Shown piece by piece: positions 14,920 through 63,590 of a stretch of DNA of 63,590 nt. Origin of the DNA: Candidatus Kapaibacterium sp. (GTDB taxonomy: Bacteria > Bacteroidota > Ignavibacteria > Kapaibacteriales > UBA4661); the NCBI GenBank assembly GCA_025455065.1, contig JALONG010000027.1, positions 1 through 63,590 of the forward strand, written 5' to 3'. The translations under genes and the position numbers were made by a program. The notes below the pieces were generated by a model, which worked only from the letters and a program-made list of their open reading frames with translations, was not told where the DNA came from and searched no databases. The first letter of the stretch is position 1, and each line of letters opens with the position of its first letter.

Positions 14920-15227
14920 AAATATTGAAATGAGTGAAACAGAGTTGTTGCTTTCAGATGAGCTAATTTTTAAGGCTCAAAGATATTCTTTTCATGGCTT
15001 TTTTACCAATTTTTCTTTTACGATGCTCTCGTTACGGCGACGGAATTTTATGAATAATCCTTGCTTTTCATCTACCAAAACGATAGATTCCCATATCCTT
15101 TGCAAAACAATGTGCATTGTAGGAATTATACATAACGCTTCATGTGGTTGGTATAGTTTTCGTATGAATTTTAGTATGAATCATCGTCTGGACTATGACA
15201 GTCTTTATATCATGTAGAACCGGCATC
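14920..15227. other. Divergent spacer between pfkA and the histidine-kinase gene
   Basis: This AT-rich spacer of about 300 bp must hold the start signals for both divergent genes. I see no clear TAnnTTTG box, no gene and no strong hairpin. A short open frame from 15195 leads into the kinase gene, but the kinase signal peptide is better placed from the ATG at 15228. Confidence 0.5.
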
Positions 15228-18200
15228 ATGTACCGAACCGAGCTTCAAAGGAAGATTGTTGGGATTCTACGATTCCTTTCCGTGTTGCCTTGGCGTGCCT
15301 TATGGGGTACTGTTTTTTTGTGGTGTGCTTTGCCAATACACCTCTCTGCACAAATACAGCATCGCTCGCCTCAACCGCTTTTTCATAGGCACATCGGAAT
15401 TGAGCAAGGCTTATCAGCAAATTGGATACAATGCTTTATGCAAGACCGTAAGGGCTTCCTGTGGGTAGGAACAGAGAACGGTGCAAATATCTATGACGGG
15501 AAACAATTTCAACATTACAAAAATGTTCCTTTTGACACAACTTCGCTCCCAAGCGGCTACGCAATCTGCATCGCTCAAGATTCGTCCGGTGCAATTTGGA
15601 TAGGCACGAGTAAGGGACTCAGCCGCCGCGACCCGCTTACAAACAGATGGCGGCGTTGGCAACATGATACTCTCAATTCACATTCTTTGCCGGACAACAA
15701 TGTTTACAGGCTTCTCTGTTCATCAGATGGAACACTGTGGATAGGTACAGCGAAAGGACTATGCCGCCTTGTGCAACCGACCAAGGGTATTTCTGCGCAA
15801 TCAGCGGCATTAAACCTGCAGTTTGAGGCATTTGCGGATATGAAGGAGACAATTTTTTCCTTCTGTCAAGACCGTTTGAACCCCCACATTCTTTGGATTG
15901 GTACATTCGAGGGAAATCTTTTTGCGTTCGATATGCGTACCAAGCGTTTCACAAAGTATAATCCGCCCTTCTATTTGCCGACAGCGCAGCAGGGCAATGC
16001 GATTACCGCTATCGTACAAGAAGCAGGAGGGCGGCTCTGGATGTCACGCGACAATGCGGGAATATTAACATTTTCAACCGCGACCGACGAGTGGCAGCAT
16101 TATGACCATCGCCCTTCAGACCCGCATAGCCTCAGCTATAACCGTGCGCCGTCAATTGTTCTGGACGAGGAAAACGGCTATTTGTGGGCAGGAACGTTGG
16201 GTGGTGGACTCAATCGCATGGATTTGCACACACAACAATTTGTTGTTTGGAAACGCAACAGTTCAGACAACAATATAGATCCCGCCATGTTTCCCGATGA
16301 TTTCATCAATTATCTTCTCCTCGACCGCGAAAAGAATCTTTGGTGTGGCACGGGGGTGGGATTGTCGCTTATTACCGCTCAAGCCCGACGGAACGGCACA
16401 TTTTTAACGTATCGGCACAATCGCTTGCGACCAAATGACGTACACACGCTGCCTTTTGATAATGTTACCGCCGTTACTGCTGTGCAAGAAAAGGTGTGGA
16501 TGGGTACACAACAAGGCATAGCAGGAATGAACGCCGACGGGACGGAACTGAGGCGGGTACCTCTCCTTGTGCCGAAGGGACATGACGAAAAACGCTCCGT
16601 AGTCATTCAGGCAATAGCAGTAAGCCGCACCCGGACAGTCTGGGCAGCCTCCGCCGACGGAATCTACACACTGCCACCGAAAGCCAAAGCATTTACACGC
16701 TGTAACGACATTGCAAAAGTCGAGAAAGGAGCATTTATGAGGTCTGTATGGGTGGATGCCGAAGATGTGGTCTGGATGTGTGATAATTCAATAGGGTTGC
16801 TTATGTATCATCCCAAAACCCGCACCACCGTTATTCCGAAAGAAGGCGATGCTTCCGGCTATCATAGTGTGCGTCCGCTCAGTTTTGCCGAGCGCATCAA
16901 CGAACGTGGTGAGCGCGAAGTCTGGTTCGGTGGCTATGGAGCAGGTTTGCAGTGCTATAATACCGTGAAGAAAACGTTTCGCCTTTACAAACACAATCCC
17001 GCCAATCCGCGTAGTTTGCCGGTGAATAACATTGGCTCAGTGATGGTGAGACACCTCGCCGATGCAACGGGCAATATGCACGATGAAATCTGGTGTGCGC
17101 CTATGAATGCAGGTCTTTGTCGGCTGACAAATCCTTCCGATACGAATACCGATGGCATATTTGAACGTTTTACCGCAGCCGATGGTGTCCCCGATGTCAG
17201 CGTTTGGCAAATGCACAGCTACAAAGACAAAATTTGGTGCGCTTCTCAGCGTGGTATTGTCGTTCTCTGTCCCGAAAAACGGACAACAGAACTGTACGGG
17301 CGCGAGGACGGATTACCTTCATTGGAATTTGGTAGTTGTGCGGGGCTTTCAAACGGGCAGATGTTCTTTGGCAGCATAGAAGGACTTGTAACCTTCCATG
17401 CAGACAGCATCAGCACTTCGGCAAAGACATTTGCTGTGCCAAAAGTTCAGATAACCCGATTTGAAGCACTGTTCAAACCACGTACGCTCTCCAAGGCGCA
17501 AGAAACAGGTGAAGAAGCGGTCGAAGTAGAATGGCAGCAAAACGTGGTCAAACTTCGCTTTGCTGCACCGATTTTTGCTGCGGCAAGAAGAACGAATTAT
17601 CGTTACAAGTTAGAAGGCTTCGATGCTGATTGGCGTTTGCAACGTGCGCTTGGTAATGATGGTGAAGCAAGTAATGAGGCTGTGTACAGCAATCTCAATC
17701 CGGGGACATACATTTTCCGCGTCCAATCCGGCAACGCCGACGGCACGTGGAATGATGAGGGAGAAGCGCGTTTGAATCTTGTCGTTGTACCACCGTTTTG
17801 GCAGACGCGGTGGTTTTTAGGATTGGTCGTTTTGGTGGTCTTGGTGAGTGTCGGTGCTACAGTGCGGTATTTGACCACGCGCCGTTTCCAAGAGCGCATC
17901 AGAGTTTTAGAAGAACTGAACCGTGAGCGGGAGCGCATTTCGCAAGATGTTCACGACGACGTTGGCTCTACGCTGACGCGCATTACACTTTTGACCGAGA
18001 CGCTGAAAATGCAATCCCCGGCTCAATCGTCCGATGTTGTACAAGGGCGCTTAGAAACGATTGCCTCGACTGCCCGCGAAGCGACACAAACGCTCGGTGA
18101 AATTATCTGGGCAATTAAGCCCGTTAATGATTCGTTGGATAATTTTTGTGCCTTTGTCCGCGAATATGTTTTTGATTTATTCGAGGAAAAAATTGCCGAA

Positions 18201-18563
18201 GAGCGGATGATTACTTGTACGGTTGATATACCCAAGCCCATGCCCGATGTTCAACTTCTTCCCGAAACACGGCGCAATGCGTTTTTGATTATCAAAGAAT
18301 CGCTGAATAATGCGATAAAGTATGCCCAACCGATAACAGTACGGGTTACAATATCGGTGGAGAATCGTATGCTGCTCATTACCGTCGCCGACGACGGCTG
18401 TGGCTTTGATGTGGAGCGGGTTGTGCAATCAGGGCGATACATCGGAGGGAACGGCTTGAAGAATATGCGGCGCAGAGCAGAAGGCGTTGGTGGTATGCTG
18501 GAAATTGTTGCGAAAGAATCTGCCGGAACGCTCATTATAGGGCGGCTTCCGCTTGTTCGGTAA
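15228..18563 (+). CDS. Hybrid-like sensor: Reg_prop beta-propeller, Y_Y_Y, HisKA_3 histidine kinase
   Basis: This is a 1111-residue membrane sensor. A signal peptide (to about LSAQ) is followed by some fourteen propeller-type repeats of the WVGTENG/WIGTSKG/WAGTLGG form, enough for two seven-bladed propellers. A Y_Y_Y domain (near RYKLEGFDADW to YIFRVQSGNADG) follows, then one transmembrane helix. The cytosolic part has a HisKA_3 dimerisation domain with phospho-acceptor His909 (ISQDVHDDVGSTLTRI) and a HATPase domain (SLNNAIKYA, DDGCGFD, GNGLKNMRRR). The kinase is of the NarX/DesK type and has no receiver or HTH of its own. The next gene, 190 bp downstream, encodes the expected NarL/LuxR response regulator. 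The ligand is unknown. Confidence 0.9.
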   Translation: MYRTELQRKIVGILRFLSVLPWRALWGTVFLWCALPIHLSAQIQHRSPQPLFHRHIGIEQGLSANWIQCFMQDRKGFLWVGTENGANIYDGKQFQHYKNVPFDTTSLPSGYAICIAQDSSGAIWIGTSKGLSRRDPLTNRWRRWQHDTLNSHSLPDNNVYRLLCSSDGTLWIGTAKGLCRLVQPTKGISAQSAALNLQFEAFADMKETIFSFCQDRLNPHILWIGTFEGNLFAFDMRTKRFTKYNPPFYLPTAQQGNAITAIVQEAGGRLWMSRDNAGILTFSTATDEWQHYDHRPSDPHSLSYNRAPSIVLDEENGYLWAGTLGGGLNRMDLHTQQFVVWKRNSSDNNIDPAMFPDDFINYLLLDREKNLWCGTGVGLSLITAQARRNGTFLTYRHNRLRPNDVHTLPFDNVTAVTAVQEKVWMGTQQGIAGMNADGTELRRVPLLVPKGHDEKRSVVIQAIAVSRTRTVWAASADGIYTLPPKAKAFTRCNDIAKVEKGAFMRSVWVDAEDVVWMCDNSIGLLMYHPKTRTTVIPKEGDASGYHSVRPLSFAERINERGEREVWFGGYGAGLQCYNTVKKTFRLYKHNPANPRSLPVNNIGSVMVRHLADATGNMHDEIWCAPMNAGLCRLTNPSDTNTDGIFERFTAADGVPDVSVWQMHSYKDKIWCASQRGIVVLCPEKRTTELYGREDGLPSLEFGSCAGLSNGQMFFGSIEGLVTFHADSISTSAKTFAVPKVQITRFEALFKPRTLSKAQETGEEAVEVEWQQNVVKLRFAAPIFAAARRTNYRYKLEGFDADWRLQRALGNDGEASNEAVYSNLNPGTYIFRVQSGNADGTWNDEGEARLNLVVVPPFWQTRWFLGLVVLVVLVSVGATVRYLTTRRFQERIRVLEELNRERERISQDVHDDVGSTLTRITLLTETLKMQSPAQSSDVVQGRLETIASTAREATQTLGEIIWAIKPVNDSLDNFCAFVREYVFDLFEEKIAEERMITCTVDIPKPMPDVQLLPETRRNAFLIIKESLNNAIKYAQPITVRVTISVENRMLLITVADDGCGFDVERVVQSGRYIGGNGLKNMRRRAEGVGGMLEIVAKESAGTLIIGRLPLVR

Positions 18564-18753
18564 TGGACATATACAGTGATTTGCTACCGCAGTAAAACCG
18601 ATGAGCGTTGATATTTCTCTGTTGTGTTCAATCTGTGTTTTTTGAGGAAGATTTGCAAAAATACAACATTTGTTCGATAGCACCGCAGTTGAAAAAGCCG
18701 TATGTTGCAAGGTACAAGGAGATTTTTTTTATCAATATTTCGTATCACGCTCC

Positions 18754-19449
18754 ATGAGTATTCGCGTGGCTATTGTGGAAGACACCACAGATATTCGCAC
18801 AAGCCTGAGCCTTCTTATCGCGGGAACGCACGGTTTCGAGTGTGTAGCGGCGTGTGCTTCGGGTGAGGAAGCAATGCACGTGCTTCCTGCGCTTATACCC
18901 GATATTACGCTTATGGATATTGATTTACCCGGAATGACGGGAACAGAATGTATGCGAAGTCTGCTCGCAGGCGGCTTTCAGGGGAAATTTATGATGCTCA
19001 CCGTGCTTCTGGATGATGTGAGTATTTTCAAAGCCCTGCAATCCGGTGCCAATGCATATGTCCTCAAAAATACGCCCCCCGCCGAACTTATCAGTAATAT
19101 CAATGAACTGTACGTCGGCGGTGCGCCTATGTCCAGCCAAATTGCGCGGCGTGTGCTGGAAAGTTTTCATGACACTTCGCTGCGCACCCCGAAAAATGCT
19201 ACTTCTCAAGCACGTGCGCAATATCCTCCTCACAACGAAGGTGCAGTATTCAGCCAAACCCTCACCGCAGGGCTGACCGAGCGCGAAGAAGAAATCCTTC
19301 AAATGCTTGCCGAAGGTCTTCGGTACAAAGCGATTGCCGAGAAATTTTTTATCAGCCCCGCCACCGTGCGCACGCATATTCACAACATCTACCAAAAACT
19401 CCACGTCAGATCTCGCGGAGAAGCCGTAGCGAAACTGCATCGGAAGTAA
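18754..19449 (+). CDS. LuxR/NarL-family response regulator
   Basis: The 231-residue protein has a receiver domain at residues 1-120 and a LuxR-type helix-turn-helix at about 165-228. The receiver has Glu/Asp near residue 9, phospho-acceptor Asp55 in LMDIDLPG and Lys near VLKNT. The HTH begins GLTEREEEILQMLAEGL and contains FISPATVRTHIHNIYQ. The ATG at 18754 is chosen because MSIRVAIVED starts the receiver fold; the frame is open 84 bp further upstream. It is the natural partner of the HisKA_3 sensor before it and may control the surface genes that follow. Confidence 0.92.
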   Translation: MSIRVAIVEDTTDIRTSLSLLIAGTHGFECVAACASGEEAMHVLPALIPDITLMDIDLPGMTGTECMRSLLAGGFQGKFMMLTVLLDDVSIFKALQSGANAYVLKNTPPAELISNINELYVGGAPMSSQIARRVLESFHDTSLRTPKNATSQARAQYPPHNEGAVFSQTLTAGLTEREEEILQMLAEGLRYKAIAEKFFISPATVRTHIHNIYQKLHVRSRGEAVAKLHRK

Positions 19450-22758: not shown

Positions 22759-25700
22759 ATGCGCCGCATATTGATTCTACGTTGCTTTGTAGCTTTCGTG
22801 CTGTTGTGTTCTCTGCAGATTGCACAAGCACAGGTTACGCTCATCCTCAACACCCCACCACAACTGCCTGAGCGGGTGAATGATTGGGAGCGCCTCAACG
22901 CGCTCTTTTCCGTAACTGTGACCAACACGGGCGGAACACCGCTTCAACGCTTGCGTATAGCGGCAACGGTGACGAACTTAGACAACAACGCCACGCTTTT
23001 CCGCACCAAAAACGACCTCACGCGACCATTTACCGCGCCGCCCAGAGTGCCGACCACACTCACCGCGCCGCAGATTCTTCCCGCGAACTCGTTTGAATAC
23101 GATGCTTCGGTGCAAACGGCGCTTATTCGCACCAACACGCTTCCCGAAGGCGCATACAGACTGTGCGTGCGCGTGATAGACGAGCGCGGCGCGACTCTCG
23201 GATTTGAGCAGTGCCGCACCTTCAACGTCATCATTCCCGACCCGCCGAGCCTGATTTCTCCTGCAAATGGAGATTCTGTGCGCCGCGCTGCGCCGAGTGT
23301 GCCGGTATTGCCACAATTCCAGTGGACACCAGTTTTTGCGCGGTTTGGGCAGCAGAGTAAGTACAAACTCCGCGTTGTGCCTGTCTTTGAAGGACAGCAG
23401 CCGCGTCAAGCATTGGAAGGAAATCCCGTTTTGTTGGAAAAAATTGTCCAAACAAGTAGCTACCAATGGCTTCCCTCCGATGCGCAGTTCGGCAATTATC
23501 CCAATGCAAAGGGCTTCGCATGGCAGGTGCAGGCGGTGGAAGGGGAGATAACCACAGCAGCACGCGCTGTTGGGCGAAATGAGGGAAAAAGCGAGATTTT
23601 TACCTTTGGCACGCCACCGCCGACAAGCCAAGTGATGAGCAGTGATGCGCCTCCCATGAAAGGCTCGAAAATTAAGGTGGGTGAATTTACCATGACCTTA
23701 GGCGATTTTACCGTCAATCCAAATTTTACTATCACGGGAAAAGGAACAATCCAAATTGATTGGCTGAAAACTGCGGTAAATGTACAGTTTGACGGCATTA
23801 CGGTTGAGAAAAAAGAAGTTACGAAAGGTGAAGTATTGTCCGTACAAACTGACGGCGTACCATCATTCAAAGACCAGCTCGGCAGCAAAATGAACCTGCC
23901 TAGTGTGCCTGAAGGTGCGAATCTCTCCTTTGGCACTAATTCAGACAATGGGAAAGGCATTTACGAAAAAGCAAAAGCCGCGATTAGTCAGATTGGAAAA
24001 GGCGCAATCACGCTGCCTCTGGGGTATGAATCCGCTACAAAAACGATGTTCGCGCTTTCGGCAATGAAGTTCACCAAAGACGATGCGCAAATGAATATGC
24101 TCACCCGCGTTCCGATGCCGAGTTTGGGTGCCGATGTCGCATTAACGCTTGGTGCGGGAGAAATTTCCTTTGCGCCGTCGGGTCCAAAACTTTCTTCCTT
24201 TGCGCTCTTTCTTGCGCAAGATTTCGCTGTGCCCTCCAGCTACAAACTCACGTTCCTTGCACCTTCGCAAGGTACAAAAGGAACATTGCTGAAAGTAAAA
24301 AATTGGAACGTGGACGAATTTGCTATCGGCGGGAAAATGGAATTTCCCACGACATGGTTCACAAAATCAAGCGACGGCGCGAGTACTGTTACAGGAACAT
24401 TCTCCGGCAGCTCGAAAAGCCTCACAGCGTGGATAGTTTCGGCGAGTATTCCCGATGAGTGCAACATTGCGAAACTTACCGATTTCAAACTCAAAATTGA
24501 CGACCTCAGTCTGGATATGTCCGACACAGACAATCCGTCGGGGCTTGTGCTACCGTCAGGCTATGGGAATGGTGTGCAATGGCGCGGCTTTGCAATCAAG
24601 AAAGCAACTATAACACTTCCACCGTATTTGAAAAAATTTGATTCCGATTCGCCGCTCACACTCGAACTCTCGAACTTTCTCATTGACGGCGGCGGCTTGA
24701 CTGGTACGGCGCAAATCGCCAAAAAGCTAGATAATATCAACTTCGGCGGCTTCAAAGGAAGCATCGAAACCTTCAAAGTGGCGTTCGTAACGATGTCGCC
24801 GACAGAAGTGTCGCTCGGCGGCACACTTACGCTCCCTGTGGGCAATGCCACGATTGGCGTTGTGGGTACATACTCCGGAAAACAACAAGGATTTTCTATG
24901 GCGGCAAATCTTGATGCAAACACAACTTTTCAAATCGGCTCTGCGGCTGAATTTATGCTTTATGGTAAAAATGGTGGAAACCCCGCAAAAGCTGTTACCA
25001 TTGCTTTCGATAAAGATAATGGCGCGACTGCAAGTTTAAGTGGGCAATTCACGCTCACAAGTGGCTTCGGTGCGAATGTACAGGGAACGGAGATGAGTTT
25101 CAAAGGTATTGCCTTTGAGGGCGTGAAGCTCAGTCCGCAAGGCGCGAAGGTGTTTACGCTGGGGCAATGGAGCTATGTGAATGGGGCGGGACAAACGAAA
25201 TCCTTTGGAACAATCGGCAAAGATATTCCTACGCACCTCAGCGATGAAGCACTCGCCGATGCCGTTTCCGACGAGGTAGAACGCCTTTATGCAGGCGGCG
25301 AGCGACTTGATTTGGAGAGCGCACCAATGCTTGCACCGGAGGGCAGCAACGGCGGAGAGGGTTTTGGTGGGTTTCCGATTTCGATTGATACCCTTTATTC
25401 TTCTGAAGTAGAAAATAAAACGATCATCAATGTTGGACTAAAACTCAATTTGGATGGTGATGGCAGTAGTAGCGGGCTTTCCGGTACGACGACGTTGGCA
25501 ATCAGTTTTAAGGCAAATAAAGGCGATAAAGGAAAGCCCATGAAGTTCGAGAATGCGGATATGGACGTAAAGGGAATTCGTGTCATAGGGAACATTGCGG
25601 GATGTGTGGATTTAGACGGCACCATTAAATTTTTCAGTGATGATGCTACTTATGGCAACGGCTTTTACGGCGCAATCACGGTAACATTGCTTGATGCGGT

Positions 25701-28700
25701 GAAAGGAGATATTGCCACACAATTCGGTCGCACGGAAAAATTAGGACGCTACTGGTTTGTGGATGCAAATCTTTTGCTGAAAAGTGGCGTAGCTATTGGC
25801 GCAACGGGCATGAGTTTCTACGGCTTCGGTGGTGGTGTGTGGAAAAATATGACCGTGAGTGGCTCTGGAGGCTTTTCAGGCAAGACACCCCAAACGATGG
25901 AAATTGGTGAGTCTTTTTCAGGGCTGAAATTTACACCAAGTTCTGGTAATGCACTCGGCATCAAGGCTTCGTGCGATATTGGTCTGACCGGAAATTCCAC
26001 TACCTTTAACGGCTCGGTGGCACTTCTGGGTGAGTTTGAAGACGGTTCGCTTTCCACGCTCAGTTTGGCAACCAAAGCTTTTTTTATGACGGAAATTACT
26101 AAGCGTCCGGCGAATCCAGAAAAAGAGGCGATGGCATATGCAGACCTAACAATCAGTATGGATTTCCCGGCATCAAAATTTACTTGTTCGGGCAAGTATG
26201 CTATCAATGTTACTCCATCAAAAAAATTTCTAACAGCAAACGGTTCGCTTGACCTTCTTTTTTCACCCGAGGAATGGCATATTTTCTTGGGTACACCGCA
26301 AATTCCGAATAAAGTAACGTTGTTTCAGGTTGCGGAATCAGATTCGTACTTTATGTTGGGTGAAAATCTGCCAATTAATGCGGGTTTTCTTGCGAGTGCT
26401 GCAAAAGCGACCTCAAAACGGAATGAAACGCAAGCCACAGACGGGAGCGGTATTGCTTTTGGAATGAAGCAAGAACTCAAGATTCCATCCGACGGCAGCG
26501 AAGCTCGCTTTTTAATGTTTTATGCCAAGCTCACAGCAGGCTGGGGCTTTGAGATGATGATTACCAAGACACAAGCGCAGTGTCAGGGCATCGGCGTTCC
26601 GGGCATTAACGGCTGGTATGTGGATGGTCAAATTGCCGCGTGGATGTCGGGCGAGGCGGGAGTGTACATTGATACATGGTTTTATGAAGGAAAAGCTAAA
26701 TTTATTGGTGTCAATGCTGAGGCAAATCTTCGCGCAAAATTCCCCAACCCTTCGTGGTTAAGCGGTACTGTAACCGTTGGGGGAGAGGTGTTAGATGGGT
26801 TACTGAGTTTGGAAACCTCATTTCCTTTTGAACTTGGTGAGCAGTGCAGGAATCTTACCAACTCTAATGATTTGCTGAAAGATTTTGAACCGATTGGGGA
26901 AATTCAGCCCTCAGACGGAAGTAAAGACGTAAGCACTTATGCTGTTCCAACAGTTGCATTTAATCAAAAAATGGAGTTTAATCCCAACAATTCCTCCACA
27001 CAAAAAACTCCTTCTAACTTCGATATTCCCTTACCCGAAGGCGGTGTTGCACGGTTTCGTTTTATTACCCGCAGCAACGACATTGTTGTGGAAAAACGCG
27101 ATGCAAACGGTGCATACTCGTCTGTGTATATAAAAAAGTTTAGCACAAGTTCCGACTTGAAAACCGCGTCAGTTCTGCCGGAAGACGAACTGGACTCGGA
27201 AACAGATTATCGTGTAACGGTAACGGTGAAAGCCGAGCAGTTTAATTTTTCAAGCCAAAACTGGAAGGAGGTTATTTTCAGCGACGGCAAAAAAGGCGTG
27301 TTTATCAAAACTTTGACTTTTACGACAGGCAAGGGTGTGGCGGCGATTCCATTCAAATCAATTGCATCAATGAATCCAATGCTTCTACAACGATTTTACT
27401 TGCAGAATGAAGATAAAACGGGACGCATCACCTTTACACAAGGCTTAAAATCTGCCTTTGCAGGCAAAGGGAACTATGTGGTTCGCATCAAAAATGCCGA
27501 TACGTATGTTGGTGAAGAAATAACGCTCAATATTGTCAAAAATACAGAAAAAGCTGTGAAAGAAATCTCGTGGAAAATGCCAACATTGAAAAATTCTACT
27601 TTATACCTGATGGAGATTTGCTTTCAAGGCTCACCAACAAAACTTGGCGATATAAAAGCAAATACAGAGGCACAATCTCAATCCCTGAAAAAAAATGGCT
27701 ATACGGTCGGAAGTATAACATCGCTTAAATCCACACTTGCCGGAAAAGGCGGCGTTATCACGAATGCGCCAAATGACAAAATACTTGGCAGCTATGCCTT
27801 TCGCACCAGCAAATTTAACACCTTTGCCGAAAAAATCAAGACTTTCCGTCCCCAGATTGGTGAAGGTAATGCAGGCAATGGCGTGAGCCTTGCAAAAAAT
27901 CTTTGCCCGAACGGCTATTTCACAAGCAAGGTCGGGAATTTGCGCTATTTCACGCGCGTCGGGAACTGGCCTCCTGTCTCAAGCAGCTTACAGTTTCCGC
28001 TTTCAACCTATCCTTACGAAACGCCACCAGAAAGCCAGTTTTCGCAAGCAGACTGGGATAGTTACATAAGTGCGGCAAAAGATTTGGGCGACCTCCAACA
28101 AAAAGCCTCTCCTGGAAACACCATTTTGAATAATATCGCCGGAGTACTGTTCTCTTGCCGTGATGCGAAAAGCGATCCAATGGATATTTACAGCCTGCCC
28201 TATCGCCTCAGCATGATGAAGGCTCTTTCCTCCATGCCTGCGCCGCATCCACTGTCATTTGGAACGATAGCGAACGGGATTGATTTCAACGTCGAAGAGC
28301 CGTTTGACGACATTGAGGTAAAAAACGTGGATATTGGCTTTAGAATTGAAGTGCAATCACCGATTTCAGGCAGTGGTATCAAAAAGAAGTGGGACAACAG
28401 CAGTATTATCTACCTCAATCCCGCTCAACCCGTCAATCCCTTTGGTCAGCAAAAAGAAGCACCAAAAACTGCCAAAATACGAATCCAATCAAGTGGCTTA
28501 GATCAACCTTGGTTAGGAGACTATAGTGTGCAATGCTTCCGAGCAAGCTATTCCGAAAAGGCTGATTTGCCCTCTGTCAAATACCGTACCGTTATTGGTG
28601 AAACCACTTCTTTTGTTGGTATTACTACAAGCAAACTTTGTAAAGAACTTGATGCGTTGCTCAATGAACCAACATATTGGGATTTCAACGAATACGAATA

Positions 28701-28785
28701 CACAACACCATTCTATCCGTTGGGCAAAAAGGAAGAACCGTCCAATGCAACGCTGCAAACGGCTTGGCTTTTTGCCTCCAAGTAA
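22759..28785 (+). CDS. Giant secreted repetitive protein (2008 residues), TANFOR-like N-terminus
   Basis: The protein starts with a signal peptide (to about QIAQAQ). The N-terminal 290 residues resemble surface immunoglobulin-like/TANFOR-type regions (SLISPANGDSV, FQWTPVFARFG, KLRVVPVFEGQQP). Residues about 300-1380 form a very long beta-rich stretch of repeated amphipathic strands (WRGFAIKKATITLPPYLKKF, FLIDGGGLTGTAQIAKKL, GTEMSFKGIAFEGVKLSP). Near residue 1395 a Big_5-like domain starts (IQPSDGSKDVSTYAVPTVAF). There is no T9SS sorting domain and no enzymatic motif that I recognise. It is the centre of the surface cluster and lies downstream of the barrel gene. An adhesive or structural surface role is plausible but not shown. 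Confidence 0.7.
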   Translation: MRRILILRCFVAFVLLCSLQIAQAQVTLILNTPPQLPERVNDWERLNALFSVTVTNTGGTPLQRLRIAATVTNLDNNATLFRTKNDLTRPFTAPPRVPTTLTAPQILPANSFEYDASVQTALIRTNTLPEGAYRLCVRVIDERGATLGFEQCRTFNVIIPDPPSLISPANGDSVRRAAPSVPVLPQFQWTPVFARFGQQSKYKLRVVPVFEGQQPRQALEGNPVLLEKIVQTSSYQWLPSDAQFGNYPNAKGFAWQVQAVEGEITTAARAVGRNEGKSEIFTFGTPPPTSQVMSSDAPPMKGSKIKVGEFTMTLGDFTVNPNFTITGKGTIQIDWLKTAVNVQFDGITVEKKEVTKGEVLSVQTDGVPSFKDQLGSKMNLPSVPEGANLSFGTNSDNGKGIYEKAKAAISQIGKGAITLPLGYESATKTMFALSAMKFTKDDAQMNMLTRVPMPSLGADVALTLGAGEISFAPSGPKLSSFALFLAQDFAVPSSYKLTFLAPSQGTKGTLLKVKNWNVDEFAIGGKMEFPTTWFTKSSDGASTVTGTFSGSSKSLTAWIVSASIPDECNIAKLTDFKLKIDDLSLDMSDTDNPSGLVLPSGYGNGVQWRGFAIKKATITLPPYLKKFDSDSPLTLELSNFLIDGGGLTGTAQIAKKLDNINFGGFKGSIETFKVAFVTMSPTEVSLGGTLTLPVGNATIGVVGTYSGKQQGFSMAANLDANTTFQIGSAAEFMLYGKNGGNPAKAVTIAFDKDNGATASLSGQFTLTSGFGANVQGTEMSFKGIAFEGVKLSPQGAKVFTLGQWSYVNGAGQTKSFGTIGKDIPTHLSDEALADAVSDEVERLYAGGERLDLESAPMLAPEGSNGGEGFGGFPISIDTLYSSEVENKTIINVGLKLNLDGDGSSSGLSGTTTLAISFKANKGDKGKPMKFENADMDVKGIRVIGNIAGCVDLDGTIKFFSDDATYGNGFYGAITVTLLDAVKGDIATQFGRTEKLGRYWFVDANLLLKSGVAIGATGMSFYGFGGGVWKNMTVSGSGGFSGKTPQTMEIGESFSGLKFTPSSGNALGIKASCDIGLTGNSTTFNGSVALLGEFEDGSLSTLSLATKAFFMTEITKRPANPEKEAMAYADLTISMDFPASKFTCSGKYAINVTPSKKFLTANGSLDLLFSPEEWHIFLGTPQIPNKVTLFQVAESDSYFMLGENLPINAGFLASAAKATSKRNETQATDGSGIAFGMKQELKIPSDGSEARFLMFYAKLTAGWGFEMMITKTQAQCQGIGVPGINGWYVDGQIAAWMSGEAGVYIDTWFYEGKAKFIGVNAEANLRAKFPNPSWLSGTVTVGGEVLDGLLSLETSFPFELGEQCRNLTNSNDLLKDFEPIGEIQPSDGSKDVSTYAVPTVAFNQKMEFNPNNSSTQKTPSNFDIPLPEGGVARFRFITRSNDIVVEKRDANGAYSSVYIKKFSTSSDLKTASVLPEDELDSETDYRVTVTVKAEQFNFSSQNWKEVIFSDGKKGVFIKTLTFTTGKGVAAIPFKSIASMNPMLLQRFYLQNEDKTGRITFTQGLKSAFAGKGNYVVRIKNADTYVGEEITLNIVKNTEKAVKEISWKMPTLKNSTLYLMEICFQGSPTKLGDIKANTEAQSQSLKKNGYTVGSITSLKSTLAGKGGVITNAPNDKILGSYAFRTSKFNTFAEKIKTFRPQIGEGNAGNGVSLAKNLCPNGYFTSKVGNLRYFTRVGNWPPVSSSLQFPLSTYPYETPPESQFSQADWDSYISAAKDLGDLQQKASPGNTILNNIAGVLFSCRDAKSDPMDIYSLPYRLSMMKALSSMPAPHPLSFGTIANGIDFNVEEPFDDIEVKNVDIGFRIEVQSPISGSGIKKKWDNSSIIYLNPAQPVNPFGQQKEAPKTAKIRIQSSGLDQPWLGDYSVQCFRASYSEKADLPSVKYRTVIGETTSFVGITTSKLCKELDALLNEPTYWDFNEYEYTTPFYPLGKKEEPSNATLQTAWLFASK

Positions 28786-59403: not shown

Positions 59404-62400
59404 TTAGTCTATACGGAATTTTCTGGTTAATTGTTGCAAATTCGCTGACAAGCTTTTCAGTGATTCTGCGGCATCGGCAACTTCGGTAATTTCTTTCGTG
59501 AATTGTGCTAATGTGTGCGTCATATCGTCCACATTGCGGCGTATTTCCTCGCTTGTCGCAGCTTGCTCTTCGCTCGCGGCGGCGACTTGGGTTGTGATGC
59601 TGGCAACCTTTTCCGTTTGGTCAATAATACTCCCCAAAGCAACACCGGCTTTTTCTGCAAGGCGCTTGCCTGCTTGTGTTTCGCGTGTGCCTTGCTTCAT
59701 AATTTTCACCGTTTCGCCGATGTCTTCTTGAATTTGCTTGACCATCGTGGTAATCTGCTTTGTTGCTTTAGTTGTACTTTCGGCAAGTTGGCGCACTTCG
59801 TCGGCAACAATCGCAAAGCCTTTACCGTGTTCTCCCGCACGAGCCGCTTCAATAGCCGCGTTCAGCGCCAGAAGGTTTGTTTGATTGGCAATAGAGTTAA
59901 TCACTTCGATAATATCGCCAATTTCAATGCTGCGCTCACCCAAACGCTGTACCGTATGCGCCGAAGCCTGCACAACAGCACTGATTTTGTTGATACCCTC
60001 AATCGTCTGCTCCACAATTTTTCCGCCTTCTTTGGCATTTTCACCGGATTCCGTCGCAATCGAAGCCACCAGCGTAATGTTCCGCGAAGTATCGTGAATC
60101 GTGTGCGCCATTTCGTTAATCGCTCCACGAACTTCCGTTACTTGCATATTTTGCTGCTGTGCAGCGCGGGACATATGCTCTACCGAACCGGAAATATCAC
60201 GGCTTTCACGGGCAGCAGTATTCACCGATTCGCTCACTTGCTTTATCATCCCCGCGATATTTTCTGCGGCTTTGGTGAAGCCGTCGTACAAACGCCCAAT
60301 ATCGTCACTGCTTTTGGGGATAAGGTTAATGTTCAAATTCCCCGATGCAAAGCGTGTCATTTCTTGCAATAACTCTTCGACCGATGAAGCGAGATACTGC
60401 CGTTGTGATTCGGATTCCCGCACGGCAACTTCTACTTTTTTCTCAACACTTTCTTTCTCCACAAGCGTTGCCTCGTGCGCCGTGCGTAAATCCACAACCA
60501 TTTCATCAATTCGCTTGTTAAGTTCTGCTTCACGCTTTTCTGCGCTTTTGATACGGATTCGGTACGCCTGATACACGCCCCCGACAACAAGCCCCAAGCA
60601 AATAAGCCCAAACCACCATGTTTGGTAAAAATACGGACGGAAATAGAAGGCTAGTTCAGCACCCGTATCATTCCAAATACCATCATTGTTACAGGCTTTG
60701 ACTTTGAACGTGTAACTTCCGGGGGAGATATTGGTGTAAAATGCCGAACGGCGCGTTCCTGCCTCAACCCAATCTTTGTCAAATCCTTCCAGCATATACT
60801 TAAACCGTACTTTTCCCGGAAAAAGCAAGCTTAACCCTGTAAAATGGAATTCAAAATTTGTCTTTCCCGCAGGAATGGTGACCTCACCGTCGTGCGGAGT
60901 ATAAATATCCTTGTCCACGATAAGTTCTTCCACAACGACGGGGGGGGCAAGGGTATTTTTCGGGATATTATTCGGGTCAATAATAGCAGCACCGGAAACA
61001 GTAGGGAACCAAAACTTTCCTTCGCTGTCTTTAATAGACGGGAATTGATTACCGCCATTACACTCCGAACTGCGCATTCCGTCAAGTTTCCCATAGAGTA
61101 CGGCGGTAGTAATGTTAGGGGTTTGACCGTCTAAAAATTTGTTCAAATCTCCCTTGGAAACTTTGATGATACCTTTGTTACAGGTCATCCAAAGGTTATT
61201 ATTGTCATCTTCCAAAATTGAATATTCCGTATCGTCCGGCATACCGTCTTTCGCTCTTGCGGCAGTAAATTTGCCGTCTTTGTAGCGACTAATCCCGCCG
61301 CCGTTTGTCCCAACCCACAATACGCCGTCTTTATCCTCGTGCATTGCCATCGCAACACTGCCGGACAATCCTTGGTCTGTGGTAAGTGCCGTAAATTTCC
61401 CATTATCGTAGATGGCTAAACCACCGCGTGTGGCTATCCATATTTTACCGTCTTTGCGCTGCATAATGCGGTAAATTGTACCGTGTGGCAGACCGTCTTT
61501 GGTTGTATAAGTCGTGTACACACCATTACGCAAGACTGTCAATCCGTCACGGTTACAACCAATCCACAGGGAGCCGTCAGGGTGTTGAAATGTTACACGA
61601 ACAAAGTTACCGGCAATGCCGTCTTTTTGCGTTAATATCGTCAATTTACCATTGACAAGTTTTGCCAGCCCTTTTTCTTGCGTTCCAAAATACATCGTAC
61701 CATCAGCACCTTCACCAATAGAACGAATGCTATTTGTCGGTAAGCCGTCTTTGTCATTATACACCCGAATAACACGACCGTTATGCACCTGATTAACACC
61801 ACCACCATTAGTCGGAATCCAAATATCCCCTTTGCTATCACGAAACAGTCCCCAAAGCATGGGGAATGATAGTCCTTCCGGCACACCAAACGGCGTAAAC
61901 TTCCCGTTTTTAAGACGATTCAAACCGCCGGCGCTCGTACCAATCCAAATGCTACCTTCACGGTCTTCATAGATATATTGAATTTCGTCACTACCCAAAC
62001 CATCTTTGTCAGTTAATGTTTCCGCCCGACCACTCTTTATACGGCTCAGTCCGGCATTTGTCCCGACAAAGAAATTCCCACGCGAATCTTCATACACAAA
62101 TAAAACAAAGCTGGAAAGCATTCCGGAGTTTTCTTTGTTGTAAAGTGTCGTAAATTGACCGTTCTCAAACTTTTGCGCGCCATCGTCCGTCGCAAGCCAA
62201 ATTTCACCATTGCGCACATTGTAAAACACATCGCTGATACGTTCATGAACTAAACCATTCGTCTTCATATAACGACGGAATGTACCGTTATTCATAGTAA
62301 AAAAGCCTTGGTATGTCGCTATCAACAGCGTACCGTCTTTGCTTTCCTTAATGCGCGATACCATAAATCCGTCGGGTGCACCATTACCCGTTACTTTCTC

Positions 62401-62943
62401 AAATTTATCGCTTTGTGTGTTAAAACGAAATATACCGTTATTGGAACCAACCCATATAGTTCCTTTACTATCTTGGAAGATTGTGGAAACATCACCATCA
62501 ATTCCTTGCTCTTTGCTATAATTTTTGAAAACACCTTTGGAATAAACGCTAATTCCACCAACGTATGTACCGACCCAAAGTTTCCCCTCCTTATCCTCAC
62601 AAAGCGCATATACATTATTTTCCTTGATGCCTTCGGTATGCTGTTTGTCAAAAACCGTAAAGCGTACACCGTCAAACCGCACAACTCCTTCTTGAGAACC
62701 AAACCACAAATATCCGTCGCGTGTTTGGAGAATCGTCTGCACGGCGTTTTGGGGTAATCCTTGGTCTTCGCGCCAAACTTCGAGAATATACTGCGTAAGG
62801 CGTTTTTGCGGGTCAAGCCCCGTAGCGGTCTGCGCCGTAACGTGAGTGTGGGAGAGGCAAAACCAGCATAGCACGAACAACGATAAACAGACAGTACGCC
62901 CGAAGCGCGTTGGGAAATTAGCAGACGGCAATGTTTTGACCAT
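59404..62943 (-). CDS. Beta-propeller chemoreceptor: Reg_prop repeats, Y_Y_Y, HAMP-like, MCP signalling domain
   Basis: A 1179-residue membrane receptor. After a signal peptide (to about HVTAQ), about fourteen Reg_prop repeats (WFGSQEG, WVGTYVG, WVGSNNG, WIGTSAG, WIATRGG, WVGTNGG) form probably two seven-bladed propellers. A Y_Y_Y domain (near [13 protein letters not shown] to [12 protein letters not shown]) and a transmembrane helix near residue 778 follow. The cytosolic part has a HAMP-like segment (about 850-905) and an MCP domain with the tip [20 protein letters not shown], then [20 protein letters not shown] (about 1014-1050). These outer domains normally drive histidine kinases; here they feed a CheA-binding coiled coil. 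There is no CheR-docking pentapeptide, and no che genes lie nearby. The ATG at 62943 is used; the upstream extension starts at a TTG. Confidence 0.88.
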
Positions 62944-63127
62944 AGTACATCCTTGATGCTGTGCAGAAGAGGTAAGGCTTGTGAGAGCAAGCAAGAAAAT
63001 TAAGAAAATTTTACACAAAAAACTAATTCTTTACACTCCCGTTAGGGCTATCGCATGAACATCCACAAACCGCATAAAACCTTGCGATTGCAACAAGGGG
63101 TTGCAACCCAATGTCATCAACTTAAGA

Positions 63128-63590
63128 TTAAATGATTGTTTTTGCGTTACTTGGATGCTTGAGGTGCGGATGTTTTCTCTTTCGATTCGATGTTGTGGAG
63201 GTACGATTGTTTCGGATGGGGACTTTATGCTTCAAGAGCGCCTTGCGCAGGTCGTCCATGATGTTCTGCATCTCTTTGGTATCTTCACAAATCACCAAGG
63301 CAATTAAGCGCAAGCGCAGTGAAGAGACAGCTTGCGTGATATTGATAGCGTACAAATGCTTGCGTTCTTTGGTAGCATTATATTCTTCAAGTTCCTCTCG
63401 GACATCGTAGAGTGCCAGAGCAAGGAAATTTGCCAGCAGCATCGCTGCGTAGAGGTCTTGCATGACTCCTTGGAATGAGGTTGAACTGAAATCTTCCAAA
63501 TGAAGGACGCTTTTCACAACATCATACTGGGTTTCCAGCCCCCAACGCTCGTGATAGAGGGCGAGAAGTTCGTCAGGGGTAATATCCGGG
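63128..63590 (-). mobile_element. IS4-type transposase, C-terminal part (runs off right edge)
   Basis: The minus-strand frame is open from the window edge to the stop at 63128. It contains LALYHERWGLETQYDVVKSV, the Y-(2)-R-(3)-E-(6)-K region of IS4-family DDE transposases, including the catalytic Glu. HLEDFSSTSFQGVMQDLYAA follows. It ends in a basic tail. The rest of the element lies beyond the window, so completeness is unknown. Confidence 0.85.

Follow-up and report, generated by a model that had tools for sequence, protein, structure and literature searches.

A two-propeller/Y_Y_Y sensor joined to a chemoreceptor signalling domain in a Candidatus Kapaibacterium genome

Near one end of the window (the whole stretch of DNA analysed here, 63,590 nucleotides), the minus strand carries a receptor gene that forms one frame with zero internal stops and begins with an ATG at 62943 (Table 1). 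A TTG at 63018 is a possible alternative start. In four orthologues (L031, L032, L034 and L036) the matching M-V-K/N position also carries an ATG, which we chose as the start of each of them. Pfam matches to Reg_prop (7.8e-56), Y_Y_Y (2.9e-20) and MCPsignal (1.1e-46; 159 bits against a curated cut-off of 34.6) lie within this single frame, bearing out the central claim of a first-pass annotation of the window, namely that a propeller/Y_Y_Y sensor is joined here to a full MCP output. The order from the N terminus is a hydrophobic helix, two seven-bladed propellers, Y_Y_Y, a membrane helix, a coil, a borderline HAMP domain and the MCP signalling domain. One membrane helix had been proposed at first pass; that helix was found behind Y_Y_Y, but a second hydrophobic helix stands at the N terminus, where it is predicted to be a signal peptide or a first membrane helix.

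The window also encodes, on the plus strand, a kinase with a similar outer part, as the first-pass annotation had pointed out. A LuxR-type response regulator adjoins it. Across the genome Y_Y_Y has 34 matches, of which this kinase is just one. Between these genes and the receptor, a plus-strand open frame of 2,008 residues (22759-28785) has no Pfam match at 1e-5.

Table 1. Features of the receptor gene and of the related kinase locus in the window, with the basis of each assignment.
Feature	Position	Strand	Basis
Whole gene, 1179-aa propeller/Y_Y_Y chemoreceptor	59404..62943	-	Single open frame, Pfam domains, orthologues
N-terminal hydrophobic helix (residues 14-35)	62839..62904	-	Hydropathy, predicted helix
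Propeller 1, seven blades (about residues 44-352)	61888..62814	-	AlphaFold2 strands, pLDDT mostly >90; via alignment to 4a2l
Propeller 2, seven blades (about residues 353-656)	60976..61887	-	AlphaFold2 strands, alignment to 4a2l
Y_Y_Y domain, Pfam core (residues 709-767)	60643..60819	-	Pfam
Membrane helix (about residues 776-800)	60544..60618	-	Hydropathy, predicted helix
Coil from membrane to HAMP (residues 801-850)	60394..60543	-	Sequence comparison; model weak here
HAMP-like domain (residues 851-896)	60256..60393	-	Pfam 4.7e-5, 24.1 bits; alignment to L001
MCP signalling domain (residues 962-1143)	59515..60060	-	Pfam
Hairpin tip, 16 residues (1023-1038)	59830..59877	-	Alignments to known chains
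Methylation-type motif, 11 residues (1121-1131)	59551..59583	-	Match to consensus
Related sensor with histidine kinase output	15195..18563	+	Pfam: Reg_prop, Y_Y_Y, HisKA_3, HATPase_c
LuxR-type response regulator adjoining the kinase	18670..19449	+	Pfam

Structure prediction, a check suggested at first pass, displayed both propellers. The AlphaFold2 model of the receptor (27-sequence alignment, mean pLDDT 80.4, pTM 0.64) has two sets of seven blades (strands read by eye). It also shows Y_Y_Y as an all-beta domain, then a membrane helix, and it has long helices in the MCP portion; pLDDT is above 90 over most of the outer half. The two sets of seven agree with the earlier estimate of about fourteen propeller repeats, a number that Pfam alone does not give (six Reg_prop stretches individually fell under E 0.01). 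Among solved structures, the outer half was closest to three sensors of Bacteroides thetaiotaomicron: BT4663 (4a2l; 694 residues aligned, Z 39.6, rmsd 3.6), BT3049 (3v9f; Z 34.5, rmsd 3.4) and BT4673 (3va6; Z 35.2, rmsd 18.5), with 21-25% identity across the three. Most of the matches further down were single propellers, with Z values of 29 or less, and Foldseek likewise placed the same three proteins on top. By sequence, the nearest solved chains were these sensors together with chemoreceptor bundles, and BT3049 and BT4663 were the best matches of the sensor half. All three are described as periplasmic sensors with two seven-bladed propellers and a Y_Y_Y domain (PMC5121618). From its topology and by analogy with BT4663, the propellers of the receptor would lie in the periplasm too; the first-pass annotation had envisaged 'surface' sensing.

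The hairpin tip of the inner half, the site at which known receptors contact CheA and CheW, aligned to 6s18, 2ch7 and 3zx6 and is a standard one. Against 6s18, an aromatic acid chemoreceptor, the alignment was gapless over 316 residues of each chain, and the best eight receptors found in other genomes are 46-50% identical to the inner half. Relative to Tsr-type chains, each arm of the bundle has a two-heptad insertion, in agreement with a bundle of the 40H type, a class read from alignment gaps rather than from class models. The HAMP match falls just below its cut-off of 25 bits, as does that of a close relative, L165 (23.3 bits). One stretch fits the methylation-site consensus, and no CheR-binding pentapeptide stands at the C terminus. 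None of the NCBIfam chemoreceptor models reached its cut-off on the receptor, CtpM giving 192 bits against 900. Pfam matched only HAMP and MCPsignal behind the membrane helix, with no histidine kinase, receiver or DNA-binding output there.

To locate the seam between the two halves, we compared the receptor with L001, an ordinary chemoreceptor of the same genome composed of Cache_3-Cache_2, HAMP and MCP, with two HAMP matches. From residue 808, the inner half is 47% identical to L001 over 374 columns; a closer comparison of 153 columns from the same residue showed no gaps, and the HAMP-like domain lines up with the stretch behind the first HAMP of L001. The residues next to the membrane helix on its inner side, R-x-R and then R-E-x-E-L, are like those of sensors with other outputs, and up to about residue 807 the receptor appears, from these comparisons, to belong to the sensor family. 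We place the junction of the two modules near residues 807-815, an approximate position read from sequence and not from structure; the structure model is weak exactly across it (pLDDT below 50 at residues 811-893). Because the match begins within the first HAMP of L001, it would seem that the sensor, with its membrane helix and a kinase-type coil, occupies the place of the Cache domain, its membrane helix and most of that first HAMP. The swap would have run from a propeller sensor into a chemoreceptor.

The receptor is real, conserved and uncommon. We searched ten genomes of the family, eight from its own genus and two from the sister genus. A full-length receptor was present in all eight genomes of the genus (own genome included), the seven other copies being 67-86% identical to it. 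In the sister genus, one genome holds a copy truncated at the end of its contig and the other (70% complete) gave no match. Named records, all of them MAGs filed under Ignavibacteria bacterium or Candidatus Kapaibacterium sp. and overlapping with the genomes of the family search, hold five full-length copies at 83-86% identity and one cut copy at 54%. Upstream of the receptor gene lies a transposase fragment (63128-63589, minus strand), inside which the contig ends 647 bases from the gene; the gene itself is whole. This nearness to a contig end and a transposase might suggest an assembly join, a frameshift or a recent accidental fusion without function, and a join of the first two kinds had been raised at first pass as a finding that would undo the reading. 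But the frame is single and free of stops, and the same join recurs at full length in 8 of 8 genus genomes, so the receptor is not an assembly join, and we give an artefact next to no credence.

A search for the same domain order across the phylum agreed with the first-pass impression that the architecture is uncommon. At least 7 of 395 sampled genomes have a match spanning Y_Y_Y through MCP (E up to 1e-60), a lower bound because at most three candidates were scored per genome. Three of these belong to the receptor's own genus and one to a different family within the class. The remaining three come from one genus elsewhere in the phylum, in which 3 of the 5 listed genomes carry the fusion. One genome of the receptor's genus (G337) gave two matches, one of them a 506-residue frame cut by a contig end. 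In six of six other fusions (L169, L170, L098, L064, L166 and L165), Reg_prop, Y_Y_Y and MCPsignal all exceeded their cut-offs; a Pfam HAMP match at E 0.001 was found in L165 only, below cut-off, and was absent from the other five, including L064 and L098. The last of these, a paralogue on C42 of the same genome, and its orthologues L038 and L047 have the same Reg_prop, Y_Y_Y, MCPsignal order as the receptor, at 35-36% identity overall. Three propeller/Y_Y_Y receptors from unplaced bacteria (L045, L064 and L071) have a shorter MCP bundle and near-identical MCP parts.

A single clade comprising the sensors of all 15 fused rows was rejected (AU p 1.9e-55) on a tree of 57 chosen rows out of 90, the 33 left out including C21, which has a long branch, and C73, which is truncated where its contig ends. 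Under the tree model used, propeller/MCP fusions therefore appear to have arisen at least twice, by separate joinings. The first trees set the receptor and its C42 paralogue apart; since the AU test does not reject trees that join them (sensors, p 0.78, the joined tree scoring better; MCP domains, p 0.3), we do not claim separate origins for these two. On the MCP tree, in which 90 rows were kept after duplicate or cut copies had been dropped, the fused label needs 7 changes, and the starred branches force 2. The 90-row sensor tree (FastTree) has many long branches and was not relied on.

Behind the 34 Y_Y_Y matches of the genome stand 23 HATPase_c, 19 HisKA, 3 His_kinase and 1 HisKA_3 matches, together with 3 guanylate/adenylate cyclases, 2 SpoIIE phosphatases and 2 MCPsignal domains. 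Kinase and MCP outputs are thus both present in one genome, as had been proposed from the window. On reading, we took 24 of the 34 sensors for putative kinases; those on C80 and C57 terminate in hydrophobic stretches with no recognised output, and that on C73 is cut by a contig end. With kinase, cyclase, phosphatase and MCP outputs all represented, output swapping is common among the Y_Y_Y sensors of this genome, MCP being a minor outcome (2 of 34), and the swap in the receptor belongs to a wider pattern of four kinds of known output. Reading of the sequences assigned a class III nucleotide cyclase end to the propeller/Y_Y_Y sensors L106, L110 and L112 (C99, C30 and C88) and a SpoIIE-type phosphatase end to L115 and L118 (C36 and C42). 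Two closely related propeller/Y_Y_Y sensors, at C57:99395-99592 (L125) and C30:111911-112105 (L122), are sisters on the trees and differ in their ends, which read as a histidine kinase in one case and as hydrophobic stretches in the other; the pair looks like a recent output swap.

CheA, CheW, CheR and CheB, which the first-pass annotation had proposed to look for, are all present. MCPsignal matches number 49, every one above the cut-off and two with an internal stop; there are also 5 CheW-domain and 2 CheR matches. Alongside CheW, CheR, CheA and CheB, one cluster (L130) contains a HEAT-repeat protein, a receiver protein and a match to CheZ that is weak (32.0 bits against 30.7). The other CheA, which has two Hpt matches, is encoded at a separate locus (L131). 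Searches of this 99.5% complete genome for motility markers gave no match to FliG_C or FHIPEP (FlhA), each matched in 4 of 14 control genomes, and none to the PilT family, matched in 13 of 14. SprA did match (3.3e-31), with no control genome doing so; the GldL search is no guide, since it matched zero control genomes. T9SS sorting tails were matched in two of the window proteins scanned, in one case above the cut-off and in the other just below. The flagellar and PilT families mark the motors to which CheA systems usually couple, and their absence from the matches leaves a role in chemotaxis tentative.

Architecture, predicted fold, conservation and Che genes all point to a transmembrane chemoreceptor in which a periplasmic two-propeller plus Y_Y_Y sensor replaces a Cache-type sensor, a reading in which we place considerable confidence; the steps of signalling that follow are those we infer. 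A sensor of the hybrid two-component type, known mainly from gene control, probably feeds a signalling network of the chemotaxis type in this organism. The ligand is most likely a periplasmic oligosaccharide or a fragment of another polymer; it would bind the propeller faces and rearrange the sensor dimer. This change would pass through Y_Y_Y, the membrane helix, the kinase-like coil and one HAMP-like domain to the four-helix MCP bundle, which would sit in an array with other chemoreceptors and modulate CheA through CheW, while CheR and CheB would adapt the receptor, presumably by methylation. Either of the two CheA proteins might be the one engaged on the way to the final output. BT4663 is described as binding disaccharides at the entry face of each propeller and as switching conformation to activate its kinase (PMC5121618); the same would be expected in the receptor.

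A glycan ligand had been suggested at first pass, and the nearest solved relative, BT4663, being a glycan sensor, favours it; gene neighbourhoods point neither way, no neighbour gene being common to all orthologous loci when frames were compared. Shared neighbours occurred only between the close pairs L031/L034 and L032/L036, and the two scanned neighbours of the receptor gene itself are a sorting-tail protein and the transposase fragment. The sensor might instead recognise a different polymer, one that is secreted or belongs to the cell envelope; lipopolysaccharide, fragments of peptidoglycan and T9SS cargo are examples. Its propellers partially match PorZ, a T9SS component (2.1e-20; 72.7 bits, under the NCBIfam cut-off of 260 for membership), and PorZ is described as delivering anionic lipopolysaccharide (PMC8545088), a partial likeness that keeps lipopolysaccharide-like ligands in play. 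However, the best structural match is a glycan sensor and the best sequence matches are to BT3049 and BT4663, whereas PorZ is described as secreted and monomeric, with no output of this kind (PMC5121618). We therefore regard a non-glycan ligand as less likely than not, and retain a periplasmic oligosaccharide or other polymer fragment as the preferred reading.

The end point of the pathway is likely to be gliding or a non-motility output, given that flagellar and PilT markers were not found and SprA was. Gliding would be our first guess, and a non-motility output its main rival. In the latter case, the same receptor would feed a non-chemotaxis pathway, its Che proteins controlling development, biofilm or a second messenger, as in alternative-function systems. 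Such an output would fit the two CheA proteins and the marker families missing from a nearly complete genome, all three of which were detected in controls; yet so many MCPsignal matches, and a single cluster with CheW, CheR, CheA, CheB and a weak CheZ, resemble a taxis system, and SprA and the T9SS sorting tails keep gliding possible. On this evidence we consider a non-chemotaxis pathway less likely than not. Flagellar and chemotaxis genes are reported for two other Kapabacteria, and type IV pilus genes are reported missing from one of the two (PMC6338057 and PMC7509429), so the lineage studied here may have lost or replaced its flagellum.

Building on gliding as the output, a broader and decidedly speculative proposal, which we would not expect to hold in full, is that a CheA array lets propeller/Y_Y_Y receptors direct T9SS-driven gliding towards polymers in a bacterium with neither flagella nor type IV pili, the sensor being a freely shuffled module. 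If true, this would amount to surface chemotaxis towards ligands of a type whose role elsewhere is confined to gene switching. The outputs of one shuffled sensor family in one genome would then include kinases, cyclases, phosphatases and chemoreceptors. Structures of hybrid two-component sensors are known, but it is difficult to isolate the signal that they send across the membrane. Because the same sensor fold occurs on MCP, kinase, cyclase and phosphatase outputs, chimeras could reveal the signal sent by Y_Y_Y and the membrane helix, and MCP assays would permit quick ligand screens for the sensor. The genome further raises the question of the means of movement where 49 MCP matches coexist with no detected flagellar or pilus motor marker.

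Both parts of the receptor are of known kinds, and their pairing was not found in the open-licence literature. We found no publication there that names the propeller/Y_Y_Y-MCP architecture, although a domain-database listing is possible, and a word search of two surveys (PMC8547431 and PMC11237719) gave no match to 'propeller' or 'Reg_prop'; the first-pass concern that the architecture might already be well characterised was thus not borne out in the literature searched. Reg_prop/Y_Y_Y outer domains are also listed for the GGDEF proteins GdpX2 and GdpX3 of Xanthomonas oryzae (PMC6637768), which the receptor resembles in its outer domains and from which it differs in having an MCP rather than a GGDEF output. 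With BT4663, BT3049 and BT4673 it shares two propellers and Y_Y_Y in its predicted fold, whereas those sensors act through a histidine kinase system and the receptor ends in an MCP bundle. In its MCP bundle, preceded by a borderline HAMP, the receptor is like long-bundle transmembrane chemoreceptors such as 6s18 and CtpM (taken here as 40H-type); unlike these, which have a Cache or four-helix sensor and a membrane-proximal HAMP, it has a propeller pair as its sensor and a coil next to the membrane.
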